From the NCBI GenBank assembly GCA_017938145.1, contig JAGBCB010000010.1, positions 62,001 to 126,000 on the forward strand: a stretch of 64,000 bases of DNA, written 5' to 3'. Below, piece by piece: positions 1,383-13,513 of the stretch (positions are counted from its first letter, which is position 1; the number at the start of each line of letters is the position of its first letter). The DNA comes from Lachnospiraceae bacterium (lineage in GTDB: Bacteria > Bacillota > Clostridia > Lachnospirales > Lachnospiraceae). A program made the translations under genes and the position numbers. The notes under the pieces were generated by a model that did not search any database, was not told the origin of the DNA, and saw nothing but the letters and a program-made list of their open reading frames with translations.

Positions 1383-2330
1383 ATGGAAGTAACAAAGTTT
1401 ATACAGTTTCGGGAAAAGGTAGTTGAGAATTGCTCCAAGATTATTTTAGGTAAGGAAAAGGCAATCGAAAAGATTGCAGTCAGCTTTCTTTGTAACGGAC
1501 ATGTGCTTTTGGAAGATGTACCGGGAACCGGAAAGACGATGCTGTTCCGTGCATTTGCAAAGACAGTAGGGGGAGATTTTAAGCGTATCCAGTTTACACC
1601 GGATGTTATGCCGTCCGATGTAACCGGTATCAATTTTTATAACATGAAGGAAGGCGATTTCGAACTGAGAAAGGGTCCTGTGTTTACCGATGTGGTACTG
1701 GCAGACGAAATTAACCGTGCCACACCAAGAACCCAGTCCAGCCTTTTGGAGGCAATGGCAGAGCATCAGGTATCCATTGACGGAACATCATATCCTTTGT
1801 CTCAGAATTTTATGGTAGCGGCAACACAGAACCCGTTGGAATCCCACGGTACCTTCCCGCTTCCGGAAGCGCAGTTAGACCGTTTCTTTATGAAGCTATC
1901 CCTTGGTTATATGACAAGAAAAGAAGAACTGGCGGTTATGGCAAGAGAGAATACAACTGCATTGCTGGATAAACTGGACTGTGTTGTAACAGCAGAAGAA
2001 ATCGCAGAATTGAAGAAAGCGTATCATGATGTGACGGTAACCGAGCCGGTGGCAGACTACATAATGGATATTATTGAGCTTACCAGAAATCATGGGGATA
2101 TTACGGTGGGAGCATCCACCCGTGGTGCCATTGCACTGTATGAGGCTTCCCAGGTGCTGGCGGCATTCCGGGGACGTGATTTTGTGCTTCCGGAGGATGT
2201 GAAGGAGCTTGCACCGGCCATATTGACACACAGACTGACCTACCGTGGCATTTATGGTCAGGGCGAGGCTGCCAATGTGTTTGAGAAGCTTTTGGATGAA
2301 GTAGCTGTTCCGACAGAGGAGAGAGAATAA
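1383..2330 (+). CDS. MoxR-family AAA+ ATPase
   Basis: This 315-residue protein is a MoxR-type AAA+ ATPase. The Walker A loop PGTGKT lies at about residues 47-52 and the Walker B ADE at about 107-109, followed by the MoxR-typical NRA-P-R-TQ sensor stretch and a C-terminal lid. MoxR ATPases act as chaperones that help assemble or activate partner proteins, commonly ones with VWA or DUF58 domains. It is followed after 2 bases by a DUF58 gene and then a membrane protein gene, the usual MoxR operon layout, so the three very likely act together. The start has a GAGAGGG site upstream. The client of the complex is unknown. Confidence 0.92.
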   Translation: MEVTKFIQFREKVVENCSKIILGKEKAIEKIAVSFLCNGHVLLEDVPGTGKTMLFRAFAKTVGGDFKRIQFTPDVMPSDVTGINFYNMKEGDFELRKGPVFTDVVLADEINRATPRTQSSLLEAMAEHQVSIDGTSYPLSQNFMVAATQNPLESHGTFPLPEAQLDRFFMKLSLGYMTRKEELAVMARENTTALLDKLDCVVTAEEIAELKKAYHDVTVTEPVADYIMDIIELTRNHGDITVGASTRGAIALYEASQVLAAFRGRDFVLPEDVKELAPAILTHRLTYRGIYGQGEAANVFEKLLDEVAVPTEERE

Positions 2331-2332
2331 TA

Positions 2333-3454
2333 ATGATTTGGTTTTTAATTACCATTGTGGTGGTTGCCCTTGTAGTAGAAAAGGCATCACTTAAAATTCC
2401 TCTGGAGCAGATAAAGTACAAACTGGAGCCTTCCAAGCGCAGTGTAGAGCAGGGGGAAGAATTTCAACTGAATACGACATTGTATAATGCTTCCGCCAGA
2501 AGTATTCCGTATGTTTTTGTGGAAGAGGTACTTCCGGCAGAAGTGGAGATAGAAGGAAGCGATACGCTAAAGCTTTTTCCAGACGGACATTTTTTGCTTC
2601 ACAGAACTACGATTTTTATGGGTAAGCATCAGAAAATTAAGCGCTCCATCCGGGTTTGTATTCAGGAAAGAGGCTTGTTTCGGTTCCGCCAAGCAAGAAT
2701 GAAAGTTGGTGATGCCTTAGGTTTCCGCCAAAGGGAAAAAGAATTCCGGCAGAGCCAGGGTATCGTAGTGTATCCGAGAAAGCTGCAGGATGAACGCTTA
2801 GAGCATGTATTGAGTGATATTTTTGGCAATATTTCCGTGCAAAGCTTTTTGTATGAGGACCCGTTTTTAGTGATGGGATACCGGGACTATACCGGACGCG
2901 AGCCGCTGCGGAGTATCAGCTTTTTACAGAGTGCAAAAAGAAATGAACTTACGGTCAAGGAATACGACCACACCAGAGAAGAAGTGGTGGATATTATTTT
3001 TGATACAAATTATAAGGGAAATTTTGACCACTATTTTGTACAGTTAGAGACGATGTTTTCCATGGTGCGTACTCTTTGTGAGGCCTTTGAGAATAAGGGT
3101 GTCAGCTACCGTCTGATAACCAACGCCTATTATGATTCCATGGAGGAACGGGGCGTTAATGTGATTCAAAGCGGCGGCAGCGGCGGAAAAAGCTTTGATA
3201 AAATTTTAGATATTCTTGGTATGGCATCCCATGCAGCAATGTGTACGACAGAGGAGCTGTTACGGCGGACCTACCTGAATTTGTCCCAGGAAAAAGAATT
3301 TGTGTATGTATGTCAGCGCAGGGATGACGAAACAGAGGCTGCCATAGCAAGGGTGGAGCAGCAGTACAAGATTCACTTTCATCGTATTTACGGAGAAGAT
3401 TTTGAAGCTGTCTATCTGGAAGAAGAGGACAGAAGAAAGAAGGAGATGCAGTAA
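2333..3454 (+). CDS. DUF58 domain-containing protein
   Basis: The 373-residue protein has an N-terminal hydrophobic segment (about residues 2-16), then a beta-rich region with the Y-V-F-V-E-E pattern seen in DUF58 proteins. Around residues 180-200 it has the diagnostic DUF58 stretch R-D-Y-x-G-R-E-P-L-R-S-I, followed by a von Willebrand-like fold region. DUF58 proteins are the usual partners of MoxR ATPases and are thought to work at the membrane or envelope. It lies 2 bases after moxR and its stop overlaps the next start by one base, implying translational coupling. Confidence 0.85.
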   Translation: MIWFLITIVVVALVVEKASLKIPLEQIKYKLEPSKRSVEQGEEFQLNTTLYNASARSIPYVFVEEVLPAEVEIEGSDTLKLFPDGHFLLHRTTIFMGKHQKIKRSIRVCIQERGLFRFRQARMKVGDALGFRQREKEFRQSQGIVVYPRKLQDERLEHVLSDIFGNISVQSFLYEDPFLVMGYRDYTGREPLRSISFLQSAKRNELTVKEYDHTREEVVDIIFDTNYKGNFDHYFVQLETMFSMVRTLCEAFENKGVSYRLITNAYYDSMEERGVNVIQSGGSGGKSFDKILDILGMASHAAMCTTEELLRRTYLNLSQEKEFVYVCQRRDDETEAAIARVEQQYKIHFHRIYGEDFEAVYLEEEDRRKKEMQ

Positions 3455-4692
3455 TGGAAGCATTTTATAAATTGGTATATGATATCAGCTGCTACTATGC
3501 ATTTGCCGCTTTCTTTGTGAGCTATGGTATGGAATATGATGCAAACCCGCTGTCATTTCTGGTATTGTTTGCAGCCTGCTTTTTGGCTGTATATGCAGAA
3601 AAATGTAAGAGATTCAGTCAGGCGGTACAGATTGGTGCCTTTGTGCTTCCGGTAATACCGTTTTTACTGGAGACCAATATCTGGGGAAAACTCATTTTGA
3701 TTTTACCTTGGGCGTATCTGGTTGTGACAGTAGTCCGTCAGGGCTATGATATTACATATACACGGTTTAAGAAAACGTATCTTGTTTTCTTTTGGATTTA
3801 TGTAGCGGTGTTCGCCTTTTTTATGGCAGAAGATTTTGTTAAGGGCGAAGTGGCAATGATGGTAGCAGGCCCGTTTCTGGTGATTTTTTTAGTGTCGGGT
3901 ATTTTTTTACTGCAGATGTTGCGCTATCAGACGGGTTCCGGTGATAAAAAGAAACTGGAAAAGTATCAGCGCAGACAGCTGGTTATTTTCTTGGTAGCAG
4001 CTATGGTATTAACGGCAGGAAATGTAGTGGAACTGCTGTACGCTTATGTGATTTACCCGATTTCTAAGCTGGTGTTTGGTGTGATAGGCGGCCTGGTGAT
4101 TTTTACTGTCAGTAAGCTTGACAGACCTCGGGAAGTTGCCAAAGAATTTGGACACAATGGAGATTTTGAGGAGTATGCAGAACAGCTGCGGGAAGCCCAG
4201 GAAAAAATGGAATCTATCTGGGGACCAATCCGCGAAAGGATGCAGGCGTATGACCCTAATCCGAAAGAAATGGATTATACACCGGTATTCATTGGTATTG
4301 CCGTAGTGGCTGCGATTGTGATTTTTGCGGTAATGCTCGGAGGAAAGAGAATAAAGAGAAAGCAGGCTGCCATTGAAGATGCGAGAGAAGACTTTTACGA
4401 TGAGGTTCCGGTAGAAGAAGTGATAAAAAAGCGCTCCGTGCGTCCGGAAATTGTTATCCGGTATTATTACCGGGAATTCATGAAGAAATCCGAGACAAAA
4501 AAGCATAAGCTGGAGATTTCGGATACGACAAATGAAATTTTGGCAAAGTATCAGGCATGGAATGATGCCACGCAGGAGCAGACGGCGGAGGCAGAGGAAG
4601 CTACGGTTTTGTATCAAAAGACCAGATACAGCAAAGCAAAGGTAACACGTACGGATGCAAATCGGATGAAGGCATTGGTGAAAGGCTTATAG
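3454..4692 (+). CDS. Multi-pass membrane protein of the MoxR operon, no transglutaminase core
   Basis: This 412-residue protein has about six hydrophobic segments in its first 220 residues, a charged, probably coiled stretch, another membrane segment near residues 278-296 and a cytosolic tail. The tail (R-P-E-I-V-I-R-Y-Y-Y-R-E-F region) resembles the C-terminal domain (DUF4129-like) that follows the transglutaminase domain in many MoxR-operon proteins. I see no transglutaminase Cys-His-Asp region between the membrane segments and the tail, so this looks like a shortened version of that third component. It overlaps the DUF58 gene by one base. Function is unknown beyond the operon association. 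Confidence 0.7.
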   Translation: MEAFYKLVYDISCYYAFAAFFVSYGMEYDANPLSFLVLFAACFLAVYAEKCKRFSQAVQIGAFVLPVIPFLLETNIWGKLILILPWAYLVVTVVRQGYDITYTRFKKTYLVFFWIYVAVFAFFMAEDFVKGEVAMMVAGPFLVIFLVSGIFLLQMLRYQTGSGDKKKLEKYQRRQLVIFLVAAMVLTAGNVVELLYAYVIYPISKLVFGVIGGLVIFTVSKLDRPREVAKEFGHNGDFEEYAEQLREAQEKMESIWGPIRERMQAYDPNPKEMDYTPVFIGIAVVAAIVIFAVMLGGKRIKRKQAAIEDAREDFYDEVPVEEVIKKRSVRPEIVIRYYYREFMKKSETKKHKLEISDTTNEILAKYQAWNDATQEQTAEAEEATVLYQKTRYSKAKVTRTDANRMKALVKGL

Positions 4693-4729
4693 TGTAATAA
4701 TATTTTATAAAAAACAACAGGAAAAAATA

Positions 4730-4758
4730 TTGACTTTATTACAGCAGAGTGGTATAGT
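4730..4758 (+). promoter_or_regulatory. Promoter of the T-box transcript
   Basis: TTGACT (4730-4735) and TATAGT (4753-4758) are separated by exactly 17 bases. Transcription would begin near 4765, just before the T-box stem I. I find nothing else in 4693-4730. Confidence 0.75.
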
Positions 4759-4764
4759 TATACC

Positions 4765-5062
4765 GTAAAGTTTATATGAATAAAATGCGTTTGAGCAGAA
4801 ATAAGTAGGCTTGGAAAAATCCTGAAGAGAGTTGTCGGTAGGTGCAAGACAATGGAGATGACCTTGTTGAATTCCTTCTGTTAGCAGTGCACCGAACAAA
4901 TTATTTAAGTAGGATGCAACGGGAGTTCCCGTCACAGAACTAGGGTATACAAGTACCCGACGAGGTCGCTATCGTGAGATGGCGGCGAAACTGAGGTGGT
5001 ACCACGGGAAGTATTGTTATCTCGTCCTCTGTATTCTTAATCGGAATGCAGAGGACTTTTTT
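4765..5062 (+). promoter_or_regulatory. T-box riboswitch leader, probably sensing tRNA-Phe
   Basis: The leader before the phenylacetate-CoA ligase gene has the parts of a T-box. There is an AGAGAG-type stem I base near 4825, and a specifier-loop stretch with GAA followed by TTC (4869-4874), which reads as a phenylalanine codon. The conserved T-box core, with TGGTACCACGG, lies at about 4991-5008, followed by a terminator hairpin. Uncharged tRNA would pair with the specifier and the T-box and favour read-through. Phe specificity fits the phenylacetate enzyme downstream but is my reading of the loop, not a folded model. Confidence 0.88.
5024..5062 (+). terminator. Conditional terminator of the T-box leader
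   Basis: The arms GTCCTCTG (5024-5031) and CAGAGGAC (5049-5056) form a stem that is followed by six Ts. This hairpin would compete with the T-box antiterminator directly upstream. Confidence 0.85.
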
Positions 5063-5107
5063 GTTTTACTGCATTCGGTGTTAAAAAAGGAGAAAGGACA
5101 AAGAAAA

Positions 5108-6415
5108 ATGGAACAAAACTATTACCAGAAATCGATTGAAACCATGCCTGCTGAGGAAATCAAGAAGCTTCAATCCGAAAAGCTTGTAAAGCAGGTAAAG
5201 CATGTTTATGAGAATGTGGAATATTACCGCAATCTCATGGATGAAAAAGGGGTAAAACCTGAGGATATTAAGGGAATTGAGGATTTACATAAACTTCCGT
5301 TCCTGACAAAGGCAGACTTACGTGATGCATATCCGTACGGCCTTTTGGCAAAGCCTTTGGAAGATTGTGTACGTATTCAGTCTACTTCCGGTACAACAGG
5401 AAGAAGAGTGGTAGCATTTTATACCCAGAAAGATGTTGATTTGTGGGAGGACTGCTGTGCCCGTGCGATTATGGCGGCAGGCGGTACAAAGAAGGATGTA
5501 TGTCAGGTGGCATACGGATACGGTCTTTTCACCGGTGGCGCGGGGTTACACGGTGGTTCCCATAAAGTAGGTTGTCTTACACTGCCAATGTCTTCCGGTA
5601 ATACAGAGCGTCAGATTCAGTTTATGACAGATTTAAGCGCAACCATTCTCTGCTGTACCCCGTCCTATGCAGCATATATCGGTGAAACCTTAAAGGAACA
5701 GGGATATAAGCCGGAGGATATTCCTCTTAAGGCAGGTATCTTTGGTGCAGAGCCTTGGACAGAAGAAATGAGAAGAGGCATTGAAGAAACTCTTGGTATT
5801 AAGGCGTATGACATTTATGGTTTGACAGAAACCTCCGGTCCCGGCGTTGCTTTTGAGTGCTCCGAGCAGACCGGTATGCATGTAAATGAAGACCATTTCT
5901 ATCCTGAGATTATCAATCCGGATACCGGTGAGGTGCTTCCGGAAGGCGAAAAGGGTGAGCTTGTATTTACGGCATTGGATAAAGAAGCATTTCCGCTGCT
6001 CCGTTACCGTACCCGCGATATCTGCGTACTTTCCCGTAAAAAGTGTTCCTGCGGACGTACTTTAATTAAGATGGCTAAGCCGATGGGAAGAACTGACGAT
6101 ATGCTGATTATCCGCGGTGTAAACGTATTCCCGAGCCAGATTGAAACTGTTCTCTTAAATGAAGGCTACCAGCCGAACTATCAGATTGTGGTAGACAGAG
6201 CAAATAATACCGATACCTTTGATGTTAATGTAGAGATGAATCCGGAGCAGTTCACTGATAAGGTAAGTGATGTACTTGCTATGGAAAAATCCCTTGCAGG
6301 TGCGATGAAGACCATGCTTGGCATTAATCCTTCCGTACATTTGGTTGCTCCAAAGAGCATTGCCAGAAGTGAAGGTAAGGCAGTCCGTGTAATTGATAAG
6401 CGTAAATTAGTTTAA
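5108..6415 (+). CDS. paaK: Phenylacetate-CoA ligase family protein
   Basis: This 435-residue adenylate-forming enzyme matches phenylacetate-CoA ligase in length and motifs. It has the AMP-binding S-T-S-G-T-T-G-R loop near residues 98-105, a D-I-Y-G-L-T-E core motif and the Y-R-T-R-D hinge region. The family joins phenylacetate (or related aryl acids) to CoA with ATP. The start at 5108 is chosen because it follows an AAGGAGAAAGG site and lies after the T-box terminator; the frame also runs further upstream inside the leader, which is not coding. The T-box upstream and the ACT-domain gene downstream point to aromatic amino-acid metabolism, for example re-use of aryl acids made from phenylalanine. 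Confidence 0.9.
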   Translation: MEQNYYQKSIETMPAEEIKKLQSEKLVKQVKHVYENVEYYRNLMDEKGVKPEDIKGIEDLHKLPFLTKADLRDAYPYGLLAKPLEDCVRIQSTSGTTGRRVVAFYTQKDVDLWEDCCARAIMAAGGTKKDVCQVAYGYGLFTGGAGLHGGSHKVGCLTLPMSSGNTERQIQFMTDLSATILCCTPSYAAYIGETLKEQGYKPEDIPLKAGIFGAEPWTEEMRRGIEETLGIKAYDIYGLTETSGPGVAFECSEQTGMHVNEDHFYPEIINPDTGEVLPEGEKGELVFTALDKEAFPLLRYRTRDICVLSRKKCSCGRTLIKMAKPMGRTDDMLIIRGVNVFPSQIETVLLNEGYQPNYQIVVDRANNTDTFDVNVEMNPEQFTDKVSDVLAMEKSLAGAMKTMLGINPSVHLVAPKSIARSEGKAVRVIDKRKLV

Positions 6416-6436
6416 TCTGAAAGGAGATAAGAAAAA

Positions 6437-6868
6437 ATGGCAATTAAACAGTTAACTGTTTTCGTTGAAAACAAACAAGGCACCATGGTTTCCATCACTG
6501 AGATTCTTTCAAAGAATAATATTAATATCAGAGCGTTATCGATTGCAGAAACACAGGATTTCGGTATTCTGCGCCTTATCGTAAATGATGAAGAAGCCGC
6601 TAAAACAATTCTTGCGGATGCAGGTTATCTGATTAAGATTACCAATGTTGTCGGCGTAAAAATCGGGGATGCTCCTGGTAAGCTTTGTGAAGCGCTGAAA
6701 GTCCTTGATGAGAGCAACATCAATTTAGAATATCTTTATGCATTTATGGCCAGAACAGAAAAGCATGCGTACGTTGTATTAAGAGTAGAAGATAATGATG
6801 CGGCAGAAAATGTACTTGTAAATGCAGGTTTCCATCTGATTACAGAGGCAGATATCAGAAAACTGTAA
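6437..6868 (+). CDS. Tandem ACT-domain protein
   Basis: This 143-residue protein consists of two ACT domains (about residues 3-68 and 72-140) and nothing else. Each begins with the usual beta strand and Gly turn (V-F-V-E-N-K-x-G and G-D-A-P-G-K-L). ACT domains bind amino acids and regulate enzymes. It lies 21 bases after the ligase in the same T-box-controlled operon. Such ACT proteins commonly sit beside phenylacetate-CoA ligases in Firmicutes, so a role as an aromatic amino-acid sensor is plausible. An AAGGAGAT site precedes the start. Confidence 0.88.
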   Translation: MAIKQLTVFVENKQGTMVSITEILSKNNINIRALSIAETQDFGILRLIVNDEEAAKTILADAGYLIKITNVVGVKIGDAPGKLCEALKVLDESNINLEYLYAFMARTEKHAYVVLRVEDNDAAENVLVNAGFHLITEADIRKL

Positions 6869-9377: not shown

Positions 9378-9544
9378 GAATTATCTGATAAAAACCGTAT
9401 GAGGATTAAAATTGTTTGTGGAATAATTGGGGTTGATAATAGGCAATGGATGTTTTGTATGATATAATAAAAAATATTTGAATTTGTATGTAAGATTTTA
9501 TATACAAAAGTGGTGAATATAGGTGAGAGGAGAAAGAGGATTAT

Positions 9545-10105
9545 ATGGAAGATAAAAAAATTATAAAATTGTTGTTTGCCAGGGCAGAGAGTGCCATTAC
9601 GGAACTTGCTGCCAGATTCGGCAAGCAATTACAGCGGATTGCCTATAATATATTGGGAAATCCGTTGGATGCGGAAGAGTGTACCAATGACACTTATTTG
9701 GCACTCTGGAATGCGATTCCGCCTGTATCACCGGACCCGCTGGCTCCTTATGTATACCGAACCGGCAGGAATACTGCCTTAAAGAGATTACATAGGGATA
9801 CGGCTAAGAAAAGAGACAGCCGCTATGATGTTTCTTTGGAAGAACTGAATGAATGCCTTCCGGGAGAAACCATGGAGCAGACGGTGGATGCCAGAGAGCT
9901 TGGCCGTACCATGGACCGGTTTTTGGATACCAAGTCAAAGGAAAGCCGCTATATTTTTGTAAGACGCTATTGGTTTGGGGATTCGGTTGCAGATATAGCA
10001 AAGGAATTGAAATTGAAGGAGAACGCAGTTTACGTCCGCTTGAACCGTATCAGAAGCAGTTTGAAAGAGTACCTTTTAAAGGAGGGATACCATTATGAAG
10101 CATGA
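9545..10105 (+). CDS. ECF-type RNA polymerase sigma factor
   Basis: The 186-residue protein is a two-domain sigma-70 family factor. Region 2 is visible at about residues 12-75 (I-L-G-N-x-x-D-A-E-E-C-T-N-D-T) and region 4 at about 125-175, with a helix-turn-helix (V-A-D-I-A-K-E-L-K-L-K-E-N-A-V). I know close relatives in Clostridia whose next gene encodes a membrane anti-sigma factor. Here the stop overlaps the start of the serpin gene by 11 bases, indicating translational coupling and making the serpin the candidate partner. The start follows a GAGAGGAGAAAGAGG site. I do not see a copy of the downstream TGAAAC-CGTC promoter in front of this gene; a TATAAT lies at 9463-9468 without a well-spaced -35. 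Confidence 0.92.
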   Translation: MEDKKIIKLLFARAESAITELAARFGKQLQRIAYNILGNPLDAEECTNDTYLALWNAIPPVSPDPLAPYVYRTGRNTALKRLHRDTAKKRDSRYDVSLEELNECLPGETMEQTVDARELGRTMDRFLDTKSKESRYIFVRRYWFGDSVADIAKELKLKENAVYVRLNRIRSSLKEYLLKEGYHYEA

Positions 10106-11513
10106 GGAAATTTTAACCGCATTAGAGGAAATCAGTGATAAGCATATTAAAGAAGCAGAAAAAGCCCCGAAGAAAAAGGGAAGACGATTTTTAAGAATGG
10201 CAGTGGCTGCTGTTTTAGTAGTTGTCATTGGTGTGAATGTGCTGTCTGCGCCTATGAGAATCAGAGCAGATGAGGTAGCAAAGGCTTCTGAATCAAGAGC
10301 GTTGGAACGCCCGGATTTTGATGATTATAAGGACCGGGATAAGTGGAGAGCGGATTATGATGCCTGGGATACAGAAAGAAATCTACGCAGTGAAACCGTG
10401 GCAGAGGCTAGAACGGGCTTACATGATTTTTTTACTGAAGGAAACAATGTGTTTCTACAAGTGTCGAACAGTGAAAACAAGTTATGGTCGCCGGTAAATG
10501 CGTACATTGGTCTGGCGATGACAACAGAGTTAACAGAAGGGGAGACAAGACAGCAGGTTTATGATATATTAGGTGTAGAAGGTGCGGAGGAACTCCGCAA
10601 GCAGGTGAGTGCCGTTTGGGAAAGCGTATATCAGGACAATTCCCATGAGGTTTGCATACTTGCAAATTCCCTGTGGTTAGAAAAAGGCTTGCAGTATAAT
10701 CAGGACGCCATGGATGCCATTGCGTATCATTATTATGCTTCCGTTTATCAGGGCGATTTAGGCAGCGATAAAATCAATAAGGACATTGCTGCATGGATTA
10801 ATAACAATACCGGTAAGTTTTTAAATGAAAGCACAAAAAATATTTCACTGTCGCCGGAAACTGTCCTGGCACTGTATTCCACCTTATATTTTCAGGCAAA
10901 ATGGTCGGATGAATTTAATGAGAGCAATAATACAGACGGTATATTCCATGCACCGGGCGGAGATATCCGGGCGGAGTACATGAATAAAAAGCTGAAGCAG
11001 ATGAATTATTACTGGGGAGAGACGTTCAGTGCCGTGAATTTGGGTTTGAAAAACGGTTGCGGTATGTGGTTTATTCTTCCGGATGAGGGTAGGACAGTAA
11101 ATGACGTACTAAATGATGGTGCCTACATGGACATGGTGTTATCGAACAACTATGAAAACAGCAAGTATATGAAGGTAAATCTTTCCGTTCCGAAGTTTGA
11201 CGTAGCCTCCACTATGGATTTAAGCGATGGCTTAAAAAACATGGGGGCAACGGATATTTTTACTGAGACTGTTGCTGATTTTTCGAAGATTACTTCGGAT
11301 TTGCCGGTCTACTTAACCGGAGCAAACCAGTCGGTCCGCGTTCAGATTGACGAAGAGGGCGTAAAGGCTGCGGCATATATTGAATTTCCGGGCGCAGGAA
11401 GCGCAGCACCTCCGGACGAAATTATCGATTTTGTACTGGACAGACCGTTCCTGTTTGTAATTACAAGTAATAAGATTCCGTTGTTTGCGGGATGCGTGAA
11501 TCAGCCGGAATAG
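10095..11513 (+). CDS. Membrane-anchored serpin with anti-sigma-like N-terminus
   Basis: The 472-residue protein has three parts. Residues 1-33 are charged and cytosolic, with an E-E-I-L-T-A-L-E-E-I-S-D-K pattern like the N-termini of anti-sigma factors paired with this sigma family. Residues about 34-52 form one membrane segment. Residues about 110-470 are a full-length serpin, with the S-P-V-N-A-Y start helix (near 132), the hinge E-E-G-V-K-A-A-A (420-427) and the D-R-P-F-L-F-V-I strand after the reactive loop. The loop (about 428-440) is rich in Gly, Ala, Ser and Pro, so a protease preferring small residues is a reasonable guess as target. Serpins trap proteases by loop cleavage and insertion. 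The gene overlaps the sigma gene by 11 bases. The serpin call is strong; the anti-sigma role is inference. Confidence 0.9.
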   Translation: MKHEEILTALEEISDKHIKEAEKAPKKKGRRFLRMAVAAVLVVVIGVNVLSAPMRIRADEVAKASESRALERPDFDDYKDRDKWRADYDAWDTERNLRSETVAEARTGLHDFFTEGNNVFLQVSNSENKLWSPVNAYIGLAMTTELTEGETRQQVYDILGVEGAEELRKQVSAVWESVYQDNSHEVCILANSLWLEKGLQYNQDAMDAIAYHYYASVYQGDLGSDKINKDIAAWINNNTGKFLNESTKNISLSPETVLALYSTLYFQAKWSDEFNESNNTDGIFHAPGGDIRAEYMNKKLKQMNYYWGETFSAVNLGLKNGCGMWFILPDEGRTVNDVLNDGAYMDMVLSNNYENSKYMKVNLSVPKFDVASTMDLSDGLKNMGATDIFTETVADFSKITSDLPVYLTGANQSVRVQIDEEGVKAAAYIEFPGAGSAAPPDEIIDFVLDRPFLFVITSNKIPLFAGCVNQPE

Positions 11514-11539: not shown

Positions 11540-11574
11540 TAATATATAGAAGGATGTAAAGGAGGCCGGTGATA

Positions 11575-12000
11575 ATGAAGAAAAAAACATGGATAATTTT
11601 GTTTATCTCTTTAGTAATTATTTTGGCAATAGGTATTATCTGCTATAAGTCCATCGGACGTAGACCATATAAGTCTTTAGAAGCTGTGGATATTGTTTCT
11701 GCGTCCGTAGAACTTCTTCCACCGGATGAAACGGTTCAAATTATCGAGATAAAAGAATTGGTAGAATATCTGAAAGAAGTGGTTATTTACGAGCAGGATG
11801 ATTCCTGGATGGAATATGCAGGTCAGGCTACTGTGTTTACACTTACCATGGCGGACGGAACGGTAGAAGAGGTTACGGCATATAATCCATTTGTGATAAT
11901 TAATGGTGTTGGATACCGCACCAAGTATGAGCCATGCGAACAACTGAACAATTTGGCTAACCGGTTATTGCATCGCAAAAAAGAGTTACAGGAAAGGTGA
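11575..12000 (+). CDS. Small single-pass membrane protein of unknown function
   Basis: The protein is 141 residues from the ATG at 11575, chosen over a GTG six bases earlier because the GGAGG (11561-11565) is 9 bases away. One membrane segment lies at about residues 5-24 and the rest should be outside. The exported part has an alternating pattern ending in P-F-V-I-I-N-G-V-G-Y-R-T-K-Y-E-P-C-E. I have seen this ending in small exported proteins of Clostridia, possibly the DUF5301 group, but I am not certain. It is the first gene after the putative ECF promoter. Confidence 0.65.
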   Translation: MKKKTWIILFISLVIILAIGIICYKSIGRRPYKSLEAVDIVSASVELLPPDETVQIIEIKELVEYLKEVVIYEQDDSWMEYAGQATVFTLTMADGTVEEVTAYNPFVIINGVGYRTKYEPCEQLNNLANRLLHRKKELQER

Positions 12001-12032
12001 GTTTTTTTATGAATAAAAAGGAGGGGCATTCA

Positions 12033-12380
12033 ATGAAAATACATAGTAAAAGTTTGATAAAGTTAATAGCACCAATTTTGGCTTTTCCTATTTTATTTCT
12101 TCCATATCAGCTATTGAATAGCGCAGTTATTGTAAAATGGCTGGGGTGCGGCTGCCCGAAGGTGGATGCTTCCGGTGAAATGATTCATGACTATTTCAGC
12201 GCCAATGATTTTACCAGAGTCTTTTGGATTGTTGTGGCAGTTGGAGTAACGGTGTTTTCCTGGTTTGTTTCGAAGAAGGTTCTTGGGAAGAACCGAGCAA
12301 GAGTACTGTATGTTGCAGGAATATTCGTGGCTTCGTTATTCATTGCAACCTGGGTGACAGGGCAGCTACTGTGGAGTTAG
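12033..12380 (+). CDS. Small three-helix membrane protein of unknown function
   Basis: The protein is 115 residues from the ATG at 12033, chosen because GGAGG lies 8 bases upstream; GTG (11997) and ATG (12009) starts further up lack such a site. It has three hydrophobic segments (about residues 9-30, 62-80 and 88-110). Between the first two is an extracytoplasmic loop with a C-G-C-P motif. I do not recognise the family. It lies in the run of small envelope genes behind the ECF promoter. Confidence 0.6.
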   Translation: MKIHSKSLIKLIAPILAFPILFLPYQLLNSAVIVKWLGCGCPKVDASGEMIHDYFSANDFTRVFWIVVAVGVTVFSWFVSKKVLGKNRARVLYVAGIFVASLFIATWVTGQLLWS

Positions 12381-12393
12381 AGGAGGCTGTGGA

Positions 12394-12906
12394 ATGAAAA
12401 AGAAACTGATATGGCTTTTTATAATTGCCTGCGCCATAATTCTAATTTTTTGCATAAGGAACCGGATTCCGAAAAGAGATACCAATCTTGAATTTTGGAT
12501 TGCTGAAAATGTGGATGATGTGAATTTTTCAGGTTATCAGGAAAAGTACGGATTGATGGGTGGCCGTCAATATTATGGAACCGGGTATATTCCGACAACA
12601 AATGAAAACGGAGAACAAATAAATCCGGAAGAATATGTACTTTATACGGTAACATCGTATCCGGACTATATAAGCAAGCATAAGCATATTACAAGTATTT
12701 CTATAACTGACCCATCGGTGACAATATATGGATTAACGTATAATTCTTCTGCGGATGAGGTGGAAGCAACCATGAAAAGCCATGGGTTTAAGAAGGCAAG
12801 CGACAGAAGAAATACTTACACAAAAGGTAAAGTATCCATAAGCTTTTTACAGGAAGGTATTTATATAAATGTGAAAGTCAGAAATATCTTCAAGATACAG
12901 TTTTAA
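12394..12906 (+). CDS. Exported or membrane-anchored protein of unknown function
   Basis: This 170-residue protein has an N-terminal membrane anchor or uncleaved signal (about residues 4-21) followed by an extracytoplasmic domain. I do not recognise the domain. It contains a Y-G-L-M-G-G-R-Q-Y-Y-G-T-G-Y region and later an I-Y-G-L-T-Y-N-S-S-A-D-E-V stretch, a pattern seen in repeats that test helix-strand packing in small lipoproteins. A GAGGAGG site lies 8 bases upstream. It belongs to the small-gene run behind the ECF promoter. Confidence 0.65.
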   Translation: MKKKLIWLFIIACAIILIFCIRNRIPKRDTNLEFWIAENVDDVNFSGYQEKYGLMGGRQYYGTGYIPTTNENGEQINPEEYVLYTVTSYPDYISKHKHITSISITDPSVTIYGLTYNSSADEVEATMKSHGFKKASDRRNTYTKGKVSISFLQEGIYINVKVRNIFKIQF

Positions 12907-12938
12907 GGAGATTGGTTGATAAGAAATGGGGGGAAGAA

Positions 12939-13304
12939 ATGAAGAAGATAATAGTAATTATCATAACCTTAGTTTATATTTTTAGCGTGACAGGCTGCGG
13001 TAAAAAATATGAAGGTCCCTTATCCTGCATATCGTATATCGGAAACGAAGGAACCGTGGTTTTAATTGATATGACGGAAGATGTACATAAGGAGATACTT
13101 GCGGTATTAAATAGCGGACATTGGTATAATGATGTTTCAAAATGTGAGCCCGATTATTCGTTTGAAACAAAGAACGAAACAATCTATTATCATGCGGACT
13201 GCGGAACCTTTAATGATGCGACAAATAAGCGGTACATGACACTTCCAGAAGCTGAAAAAGCGAAAATAAACCAGTTGTTGGGCGTAACGATGGTTTGTGA
13301 GTAA
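12939..13304 (+). CDS. Small lipoprotein of unknown function
   Basis: The 121-residue protein starts at the ATG at 12939 behind a GGGGGGAAG site; a TTG 27 bases upstream is less likely. The lipobox V-T-G-C puts the lipidated Cys at residue 20. The mature part ends with an H-A-D-C-G-T-F-N-D pattern that I associate with a widespread family of small Clostridia lipoproteins of unknown function. Last intact gene of the run behind the ECF promoter. Confidence 0.7.
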   Translation: MKKIIVIIITLVYIFSVTGCGKKYEGPLSCISYIGNEGTVVLIDMTEDVHKEILAVLNSGHWYNDVSKCEPDYSFETKNETIYYHADCGTFNDATNKRYMTLPEAEKAKINQLLGVTMVCE

Positions 13305-13472: not shown

Positions 13473-13513
13473 CGGTTGCAACTGTCAGTTGCTAAATTTT
13501 AAACCCGCTTTGA

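Follow-up and report, generated by a model that had tools for sequence, protein, structure and literature searches.

What could a sigma factor have to do with a serpin? In the 64,000-nucleotide stretch of DNA from a Lachnospiraceae bacterium analysed here (the window), the gene of an ECF sigma factor (186 aa, 9545..10105; both genes and the elements described within and before them lie on the plus strand) runs into that of a membrane-anchored serpin (472 aa, 10095..11513), and the question raised by this locus is whether the serpin protein is the anti-sigma factor proposed for its neighbour. The sigma gene was called from its ORF and its Pfam and NCBIfam matches, and the serpin gene from its ORF, Pfam, a module profile and a divergence test. 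ECF sigma factors comprise regions 2 and 4, without region 3, in about 190 aa. The sigma protein matched Sigma70_r2 with 40.5 bits (residues 22-85) and Sigma70_r4_2 with 29.6 bits (residues 132-172) in Pfam, as well as TIGR02937 with 72 bits in NCBIfam; with PF04542 and PF08281 above cut-off and a length of 186 aa, it qualifies as an ECF sigma factor. The two ORFs share the 11 nt ATGAAGCATGA (10095..10105), and the serpin gene has its own ribosome site, AAGGAGGG, at 10079-10086 within the sigma gene; translational coupling of the two genes is plausible.

This overlap recurs in relatives. Among those with 59-76% serpin identity, the sigma gene overlapped the serpin gene in 10 of 11, and it is therefore not a product of chance; the eleventh, L064, is a lipoprotein without the sigma gene. 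Within the 12-member clade of the window, in which the window was represented by L018, the overlap measured 11 nt in nine members and 8 nt in the other three. The genome of origin (3.24 Mb in 72 contigs, 78% complete) yielded four serpins in our search. The other three start with lipoprotein-type secretion signals, and no sigma gene of such type was found beside them in the DNA that was fetched.

The serpin protein starts with a cytosolic anti-sigma-like module (residues 1-24, MKHEEILTALEEISDKHIKEAEKA; 10095..10166), assigned by the profile described below. The cytosolic part, M1-R34, becomes basic ahead of the membrane (KKKGRRFLR) and is followed by 18 hydrophobic residues (35-52; 10197..10250), which we read as the membrane segment. 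By the positive-inside rule, applied by eye, the basic stretch places the N-terminus inside and the serpin outside. An extracellular extension (residues 53-118; 10251..10448), like the one in lipoprotein relatives, leads to the serpin domain (residues 124-471; 10464..11507), which matched PF00079 with 216 bits over profile positions 18-370 of 370, that is, nearly end to end; no other Pfam family exceeded its cut-off in the 472-aa protein. Solved relatives of the domain in the PDB include conserpin, tengpin and alpha-1-antitrypsin (down to 1e-32). Thus, of the structural observations in the original prediction, the 11-base overlap of the ECF sigma and serpin genes was confirmed by the ORF coordinates and the complete serpin domain by Pfam, and the short cytosolic N-terminus with its single membrane segment agrees with the topology as read by eye. 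An A-x-A signal-peptidase-like motif after the membrane was considered as a site of first cleavage and dropped as not specific, because lipoprotein relatives have the same motif; we identified no site-1 cleavage site in the serpin protein.

To whom does the N-terminus belong, the serpin or the sigma factor? The genome of origin encodes six paralogues of this sigma factor (37-45% identity). Behind five of them (L006-L009, L011) comes a membrane protein whose first residues are similar, and at the sixth (L010) a similar protein stands in front of the sigma gene while the protein behind it is unrelated. The five pairs are like the one in the window in sigma family and N-terminal module, and their genes overlap as well, by 4 nt; they differ from it in the ectodomain, which is Big_14 in L007 and matched nothing over the Pfam cut-off in the others, whereas here it is a serpin. 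We collected 45 distinct non-serpin partners and built the module profile from 39 complete ones, none with a serpin match, excluding L039_25 (a truncated serpin gene, the same gene as L094_48) and four partners cut by locus ends. The module of the window serpin scored 30.8 bits against this profile, compared with a maximum of 6.2 bits among 3240 shuffled serpins. With an alternative profile of 44 sequences the serpin classes and counts were identical, and the shuffle maximum was 4.7 bits. The serpin protein thus carries a cytosolic module common to the partners of paralogous sigmas, as a membrane anti-sigma factor would.

Linkage between module and sigma gene was scored in 148 distinct serpins whose alignment with the window serpin covered at least 200 residues, using a module threshold of 5 bits and a stricter check at 8 bits. 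The sigma gene stood directly upstream in 35 of the 38 serpins above 5 bits versus 2 of the 110 others (Fisher p 5e-28); at 8 bits the counts were 33 of 36 versus 4 of 112. The loci had been gathered with a peptide pattern taken from this very module (DKHIKEAE), with sigma queries and by whole-genome searches with the full-length serpin. When loci from the DKHIKEAE pattern and the sigma queries were left out, the whole-genome serpin searches alone gave 20 of 23 versus 1 of 107 (p 2e-19). Lipobox serpins, recognized by a simple pattern, numbered 62, and none had the sigma gene.

The exceptions were few. Below the threshold, the sigma gene accompanied L073, which at 4.0 bits is of the same type by eye, and L164, where it precedes a secreted serpin without the module. 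The three module serpins without the sigma gene directly upstream all had sigma-like sequence nearby, as detected with a sigma profile; broken sigma pieces lie near the module-bearing serpin of L149 and an HTH-sigma4 fusion near that of L132/L215, and the third locus, L213, is a tandem array in which a serpin is broken. Two further module-bearing serpins outside the count of 148, L190 and L191, proved in extended DNA (L208, L209) to belong to sigma/serpin/serpin arrays. A wider draw comprised 391 genomes of the class, of which 78 gave a serpin match. Among the 28 new serpin loci examined there, three serpins had the module, two of them with the sigma gene, and an extra stretch supplied a further pair, L254. 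At L249, from a genome outside the order (G968), no sigma ORF was found in the 3.5 kb preceding a module-bearing serpin; the same genome holds the complete sigma-serpin pair L254, and the L249 serpin is possibly a second anchor for the same sigma factor. L249 and L164, each with one partner of the pair lacking, speak against the anti-sigma reading.

Several other arrangements of serpin and sigma genes were encountered. The serpin of L146 lies behind a different ECF gene (37 bits to the family profile), and those of L230 and L231, with an unrelated membrane N-terminus, behind divergent sigma genes (67 and 57 bits). In these three loci and in L251, the serpins have unrelated membrane N-termini and their genes overlap or adjoin those of divergent ECF sigma factors; they appear to be independent recruitments. 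The fusion that precedes the serpin in L132 (59 bits) and L215 is of unusual sigma-like architecture: an XRE-type HTH protein (by eye) is joined to a sigma region-4 domain and overlaps the module-bearing serpin. In L061, three sigma/anti-sigma pairs of the same family stand in a row (1773-6663), the middle one being the serpin pair.

To follow module and sigma gene through descent, we built a tree from the serpin domain only (144 of the 148 rows; quick search, SH-aLRT), on which the module changed 19-20 times. Starred branches provided 11 independent contrasts. With some states set by hand, the sigma gene changed in the same direction in 10.5 of them on average and in the opposite direction in none (sign test, median p 0.002); with automatic, strict scoring the figures were 9.1 of 11 and none (median p 0.004). 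Module and sigma gene are thus co-inherited, as would be the case for an anti-sigma gene directly behind its sigma gene. L064 is a close case: it shares 61% identity with the window serpin and falls within its clade, yet it is a lipoprotein without the sigma gene. A single genus contains L211, with sigma gene and module, L210 (= L188), without sigma gene and with no recognisable module but with the membrane segment kept, and L212 (= L187), also without sigma gene and with a short anchor in place of the module.

The divergence of the paired proteins was compared by partial Mantel tests on 24 sigma-serpin pairs, in which the clade of the window entered as one row and the module was taken as 27 residues. 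Module distances followed those of the sigma factor when the serpin domain was held constant (partial r 0.55, p 0.0005); with the sigma factor held constant, they did not follow those of the serpin domain (0.08, p 0.24). The pattern was reversed in two control segments of these proteins: the 40 residues before the serpin domain gave 0.05 with the sigma factor and 0.66 with the serpin, whereas for the 27 residues that open the serpin domain the values were -0.06 and 0.32, respectively. The break in divergence is close to the membrane, where it would be expected had a sensor domain been swapped under an anti-sigma module. A tree of the sigma factors (80 rows) agrees: those linked to serpins were dispersed among the others, with 15 changes, at least five of them forced by starred branches. 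Sigma gene and module may also have moved jointly as a DNA block, which is compatible with the same reading.

Taken together, the profile match, the co-occurrence, the paired gain and loss and the divergence test make it very probable that the serpin protein acts as anti-sigma factor to the ECF sigma factor. The same lines support the original prediction, which had proposed this role for the serpin N-terminus and had suggested a search of genomes for sigma-serpin pairs with such an N-terminus; the pair is recurrent, accounting for 35 of the 38 module serpins. It had also named what would count against the idea, namely homologues that regularly lack the sigma gene and have another N-terminus. 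Such homologues are numerous. The N-terminus, however, changes in step with the presence of the sigma gene, as the anti-sigma hypothesis predicts.

If the serpin is an anti-sigma factor, which genes would its sigma factor control? Alignment of the DNA upstream of 12 orthologous loci revealed a promoter-like element, TGTAAGAT-N9-AAAAGTGGTGAATATA (9489..9521), likely the -35 and -10 boxes. The sequence TGTAA[G/C]AT was present in 11 of the 12 upstream regions; the exception was L056, whose sigma start is disrupted. There (2003-4011), an ATPase-like ORF (by eye) directly precedes the sigma gene, and the first residues of the sigma factor and the promoter element are replaced. A second, less uniform block around TATAGGTGA lies just ahead of the ribosome site. 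The element matched once in the window, against 0.02 matches expected by chance. With up to three mismatches, the genome of origin contained one exact copy and one at three mismatches (L217), which looks like chance and was rejected as a further target. With up to two mismatches, a variant search, there was one match each in the genome of origin and in G099 (99% complete), both before the sigma-serpin pair, and no further copy in either genome; the genome of origin being 78% complete and the motif search strict, other targets are possible. An element conserved and nearly unique before the sigma gene suggests autoregulation, and it is likely an autoregulated ECF promoter.

No neighbouring gene found a match in the flanks of 11 related loci (about 4 kb where available), so promoter, sigma gene and serpin gene form the conserved unit. 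On this basis, an operon role of the region 11569-13301 was set aside. This region, behind the serpin gene, holds four small membrane- or lipoprotein-like ORFs with no family match over cut-off, and a terminator-like hairpin is located at 13478-13492. The composition of the unit suggests that the main output of the sigma factor would be more sigma factor and more serpin.

Serpins are single-use protease traps. The consensus of the inhibitory hinge at P17-P9 is given as ExGTEAAAA (PMC8233489; PMC10090351). The window serpin, with P numbers taken from alignment to alpha-1-antitrypsin, has the loop EEGVKAAAY-IEFPGAGSAAPP, in which the hinge EEGVKAAAY occupies residues 420-428 (11352..11378) and the remainder IEFPGAGSAAPP corresponds to 11379..11414. 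P17, P15 and P12-P10 fit the consensus, while Val at P14 and Tyr at P9 depart from it; owing to these departures, trapping could be slow or absent. Small residues (A/G/S) flank the presumed scissile bond, and those around P1 point to no particular protease.

From these sequence features we consider it reasonably probable that the locus is a one-operon transmembrane protease-sensing switch with the serpin as anti-sigma factor. Within it we infer binding, trapping, a shape-change signal, regulated proteolysis and autoregulation of the pair. The first ~25 cytosolic residues of the serpin protein would hold the sigma factor at the membrane. An extracellular protease attacking the reactive loop would leave the serpin spent, cleaved with or without trapping, and changed in shape, and the change may expose the membrane-proximal part to site-1 cleavage and then to a site-2 protease. 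The freed sigma factor would transcribe its own operon and so replace the spent single-use inhibitor. A site-2 protease gene is present in the genome of origin and also in 14 of 14 control genomes, which makes this observation permissive only. More tentatively, and as a possibility that we hold less likely than not, the system may act as a meter of consumption: each trapped protease would break one anti-sigma factor and order its replacement, the stressed-to-relaxed transition would cross the membrane as the signal, and recruitment of serpins to this end would have happened more than once, as it seems behind no fewer than three kinds of sigma gene.

Alternatively, the serpin of the anti-sigma factor could inhibit its own site-1 protease, so that the sigma factor would be freed when the protease outnumbers intact serpin and no shape-change signal would be involved. 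The linkage and the divergence test are the same genetics under this variant, and the identity of P7-P4' within the clade of the window, 0.73 compared with 0.72 for the domain, suits one fixed, perhaps endogenous, protease. However, P7-P1 vary in a hand-picked set of 15 from the wider group, a pattern that a variety of outside proteases would produce, and we regard the variant as unlikely.

The serpin could also be a non-inhibitory ectodomain on an anti-sigma factor, its fold being a scaffold that senses a ligand or envelope stress. Val at P14 and Tyr at P9 would agree with this, as would L094_48, which has one small residue at P12-P9, has lost the hinge and looks non-inhibitory. Non-inhibitory serpins acting as cleavable carriers do exist: in human corticosteroid-binding globulin, cleavage of the loop lowers cargo binding, and rat CBG is described as not undergoing the change of shape (PMC3530532). 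CBG, however, is a blood protein with a hormone as cargo, and neither a membrane nor a sigma factor is involved. Against a scaffold stands the conservation of the hinge. The mean pairwise identity of P18-P9 exceeded that of the domain in two groups, with 0.92 versus 0.72 in 13 rows of the window clade and 0.73 versus 0.44 in the 15 hand-picked members of the wider group. In addition, Gly at P15 and small residues at P12-P10 occur in nearly all rows of the 38-row hinge alignment of module-bearing serpins (the 37 over the threshold and L073); of the four positions P12-P9, three are small in 35 rows and all four in two. This pattern favours a working loop, and a pure scaffold seems to us improbable. 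At L094, the hinge-less L094_48 adjoins a second sigma-serpin pair whose hinge is intact, and the two may divide the labour between them.

That the N-terminus is a mere membrane anchor, and the serpin an effector sharing an operon with an unrelated sigma factor, is very improbable: a separate serpin gene does follow a sigma/non-serpin anti-sigma pair after 18-31 nt (counted from its first possible start) in L077, L098, L104, L110 and L118, so serpins can be plain operon members, but the N-terminus studied here matches the modules of non-serpin anti-sigma partners, follows the sigma factor in its divergence and not the serpin domain attached to it, and vanishes with the sigma gene.

The preferred reading, a protease-sensing switch with the serpin as anti-sigma factor, can be compared with known systems. 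SigV-RsiV of Bacillus subtilis and Clostridioides difficile is likewise an ECF sigma factor with a membrane anti-sigma factor, and the RsiV ectodomain, DUF3298/DUF4163, binds and inhibits the signal enzyme. In the window the ectodomain is a serpin, without a Pfam match to an RsiV-type ectodomain, and would be consumed. RsiV is described as an anti-sigma factor that both senses and inhibits lysozyme, is cleaved first by signal peptidase and then by RasP, and belongs to an autoregulated operon (PMC5014341). The pair in the window would be a self-replenishing protease trap with a logic similar to that of RsiV/sigma-V and lysozyme. The SigI-RsgI systems of Clostridium thermocellum also use a membrane anti-sigma factor with outer sensor domains, for which a polysaccharide signal was proposed (PMC3990059); an RsgI N-terminal domain was not detected here by Pfam or NCBIfam, and both mentions of serpins in that paper stand in a table of cellulosomal components. 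In the gut bacterium Bifidobacterium breve, serpin production is protease-inducible through a two-component system (PMC8012564), so there the sensor is separate, whereas here sensor and serpin would be one protein. Human CBG offers a further parallel for the proposed mechanism, as a serpin whose grip on its cargo loosens when the loop is cut (PMC3530532). We found no description in the literature of a serpin as anti-sigma factor or of a sigma-linked protease inhibitor, although a mention in a supplementary table is possible. Prokaryotic serpins with a membrane anchor are noted in a comprehensive phylogeny of serpins, whose main text does not contain the term 'sigma factor' (PMC8233489).

Under the anti-sigma reading, a sizeable group of gut serpins acquires a testable role, that of transmembrane receptors. 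If true, this would be the first case known to us of serpin chemistry wired to transcription. Protease attack would join the cues to which ECF sigma factors respond, in bacteria surrounded by digestive and inflammatory proteases, and the pair would serve as a ready-made genetic protease sensor.
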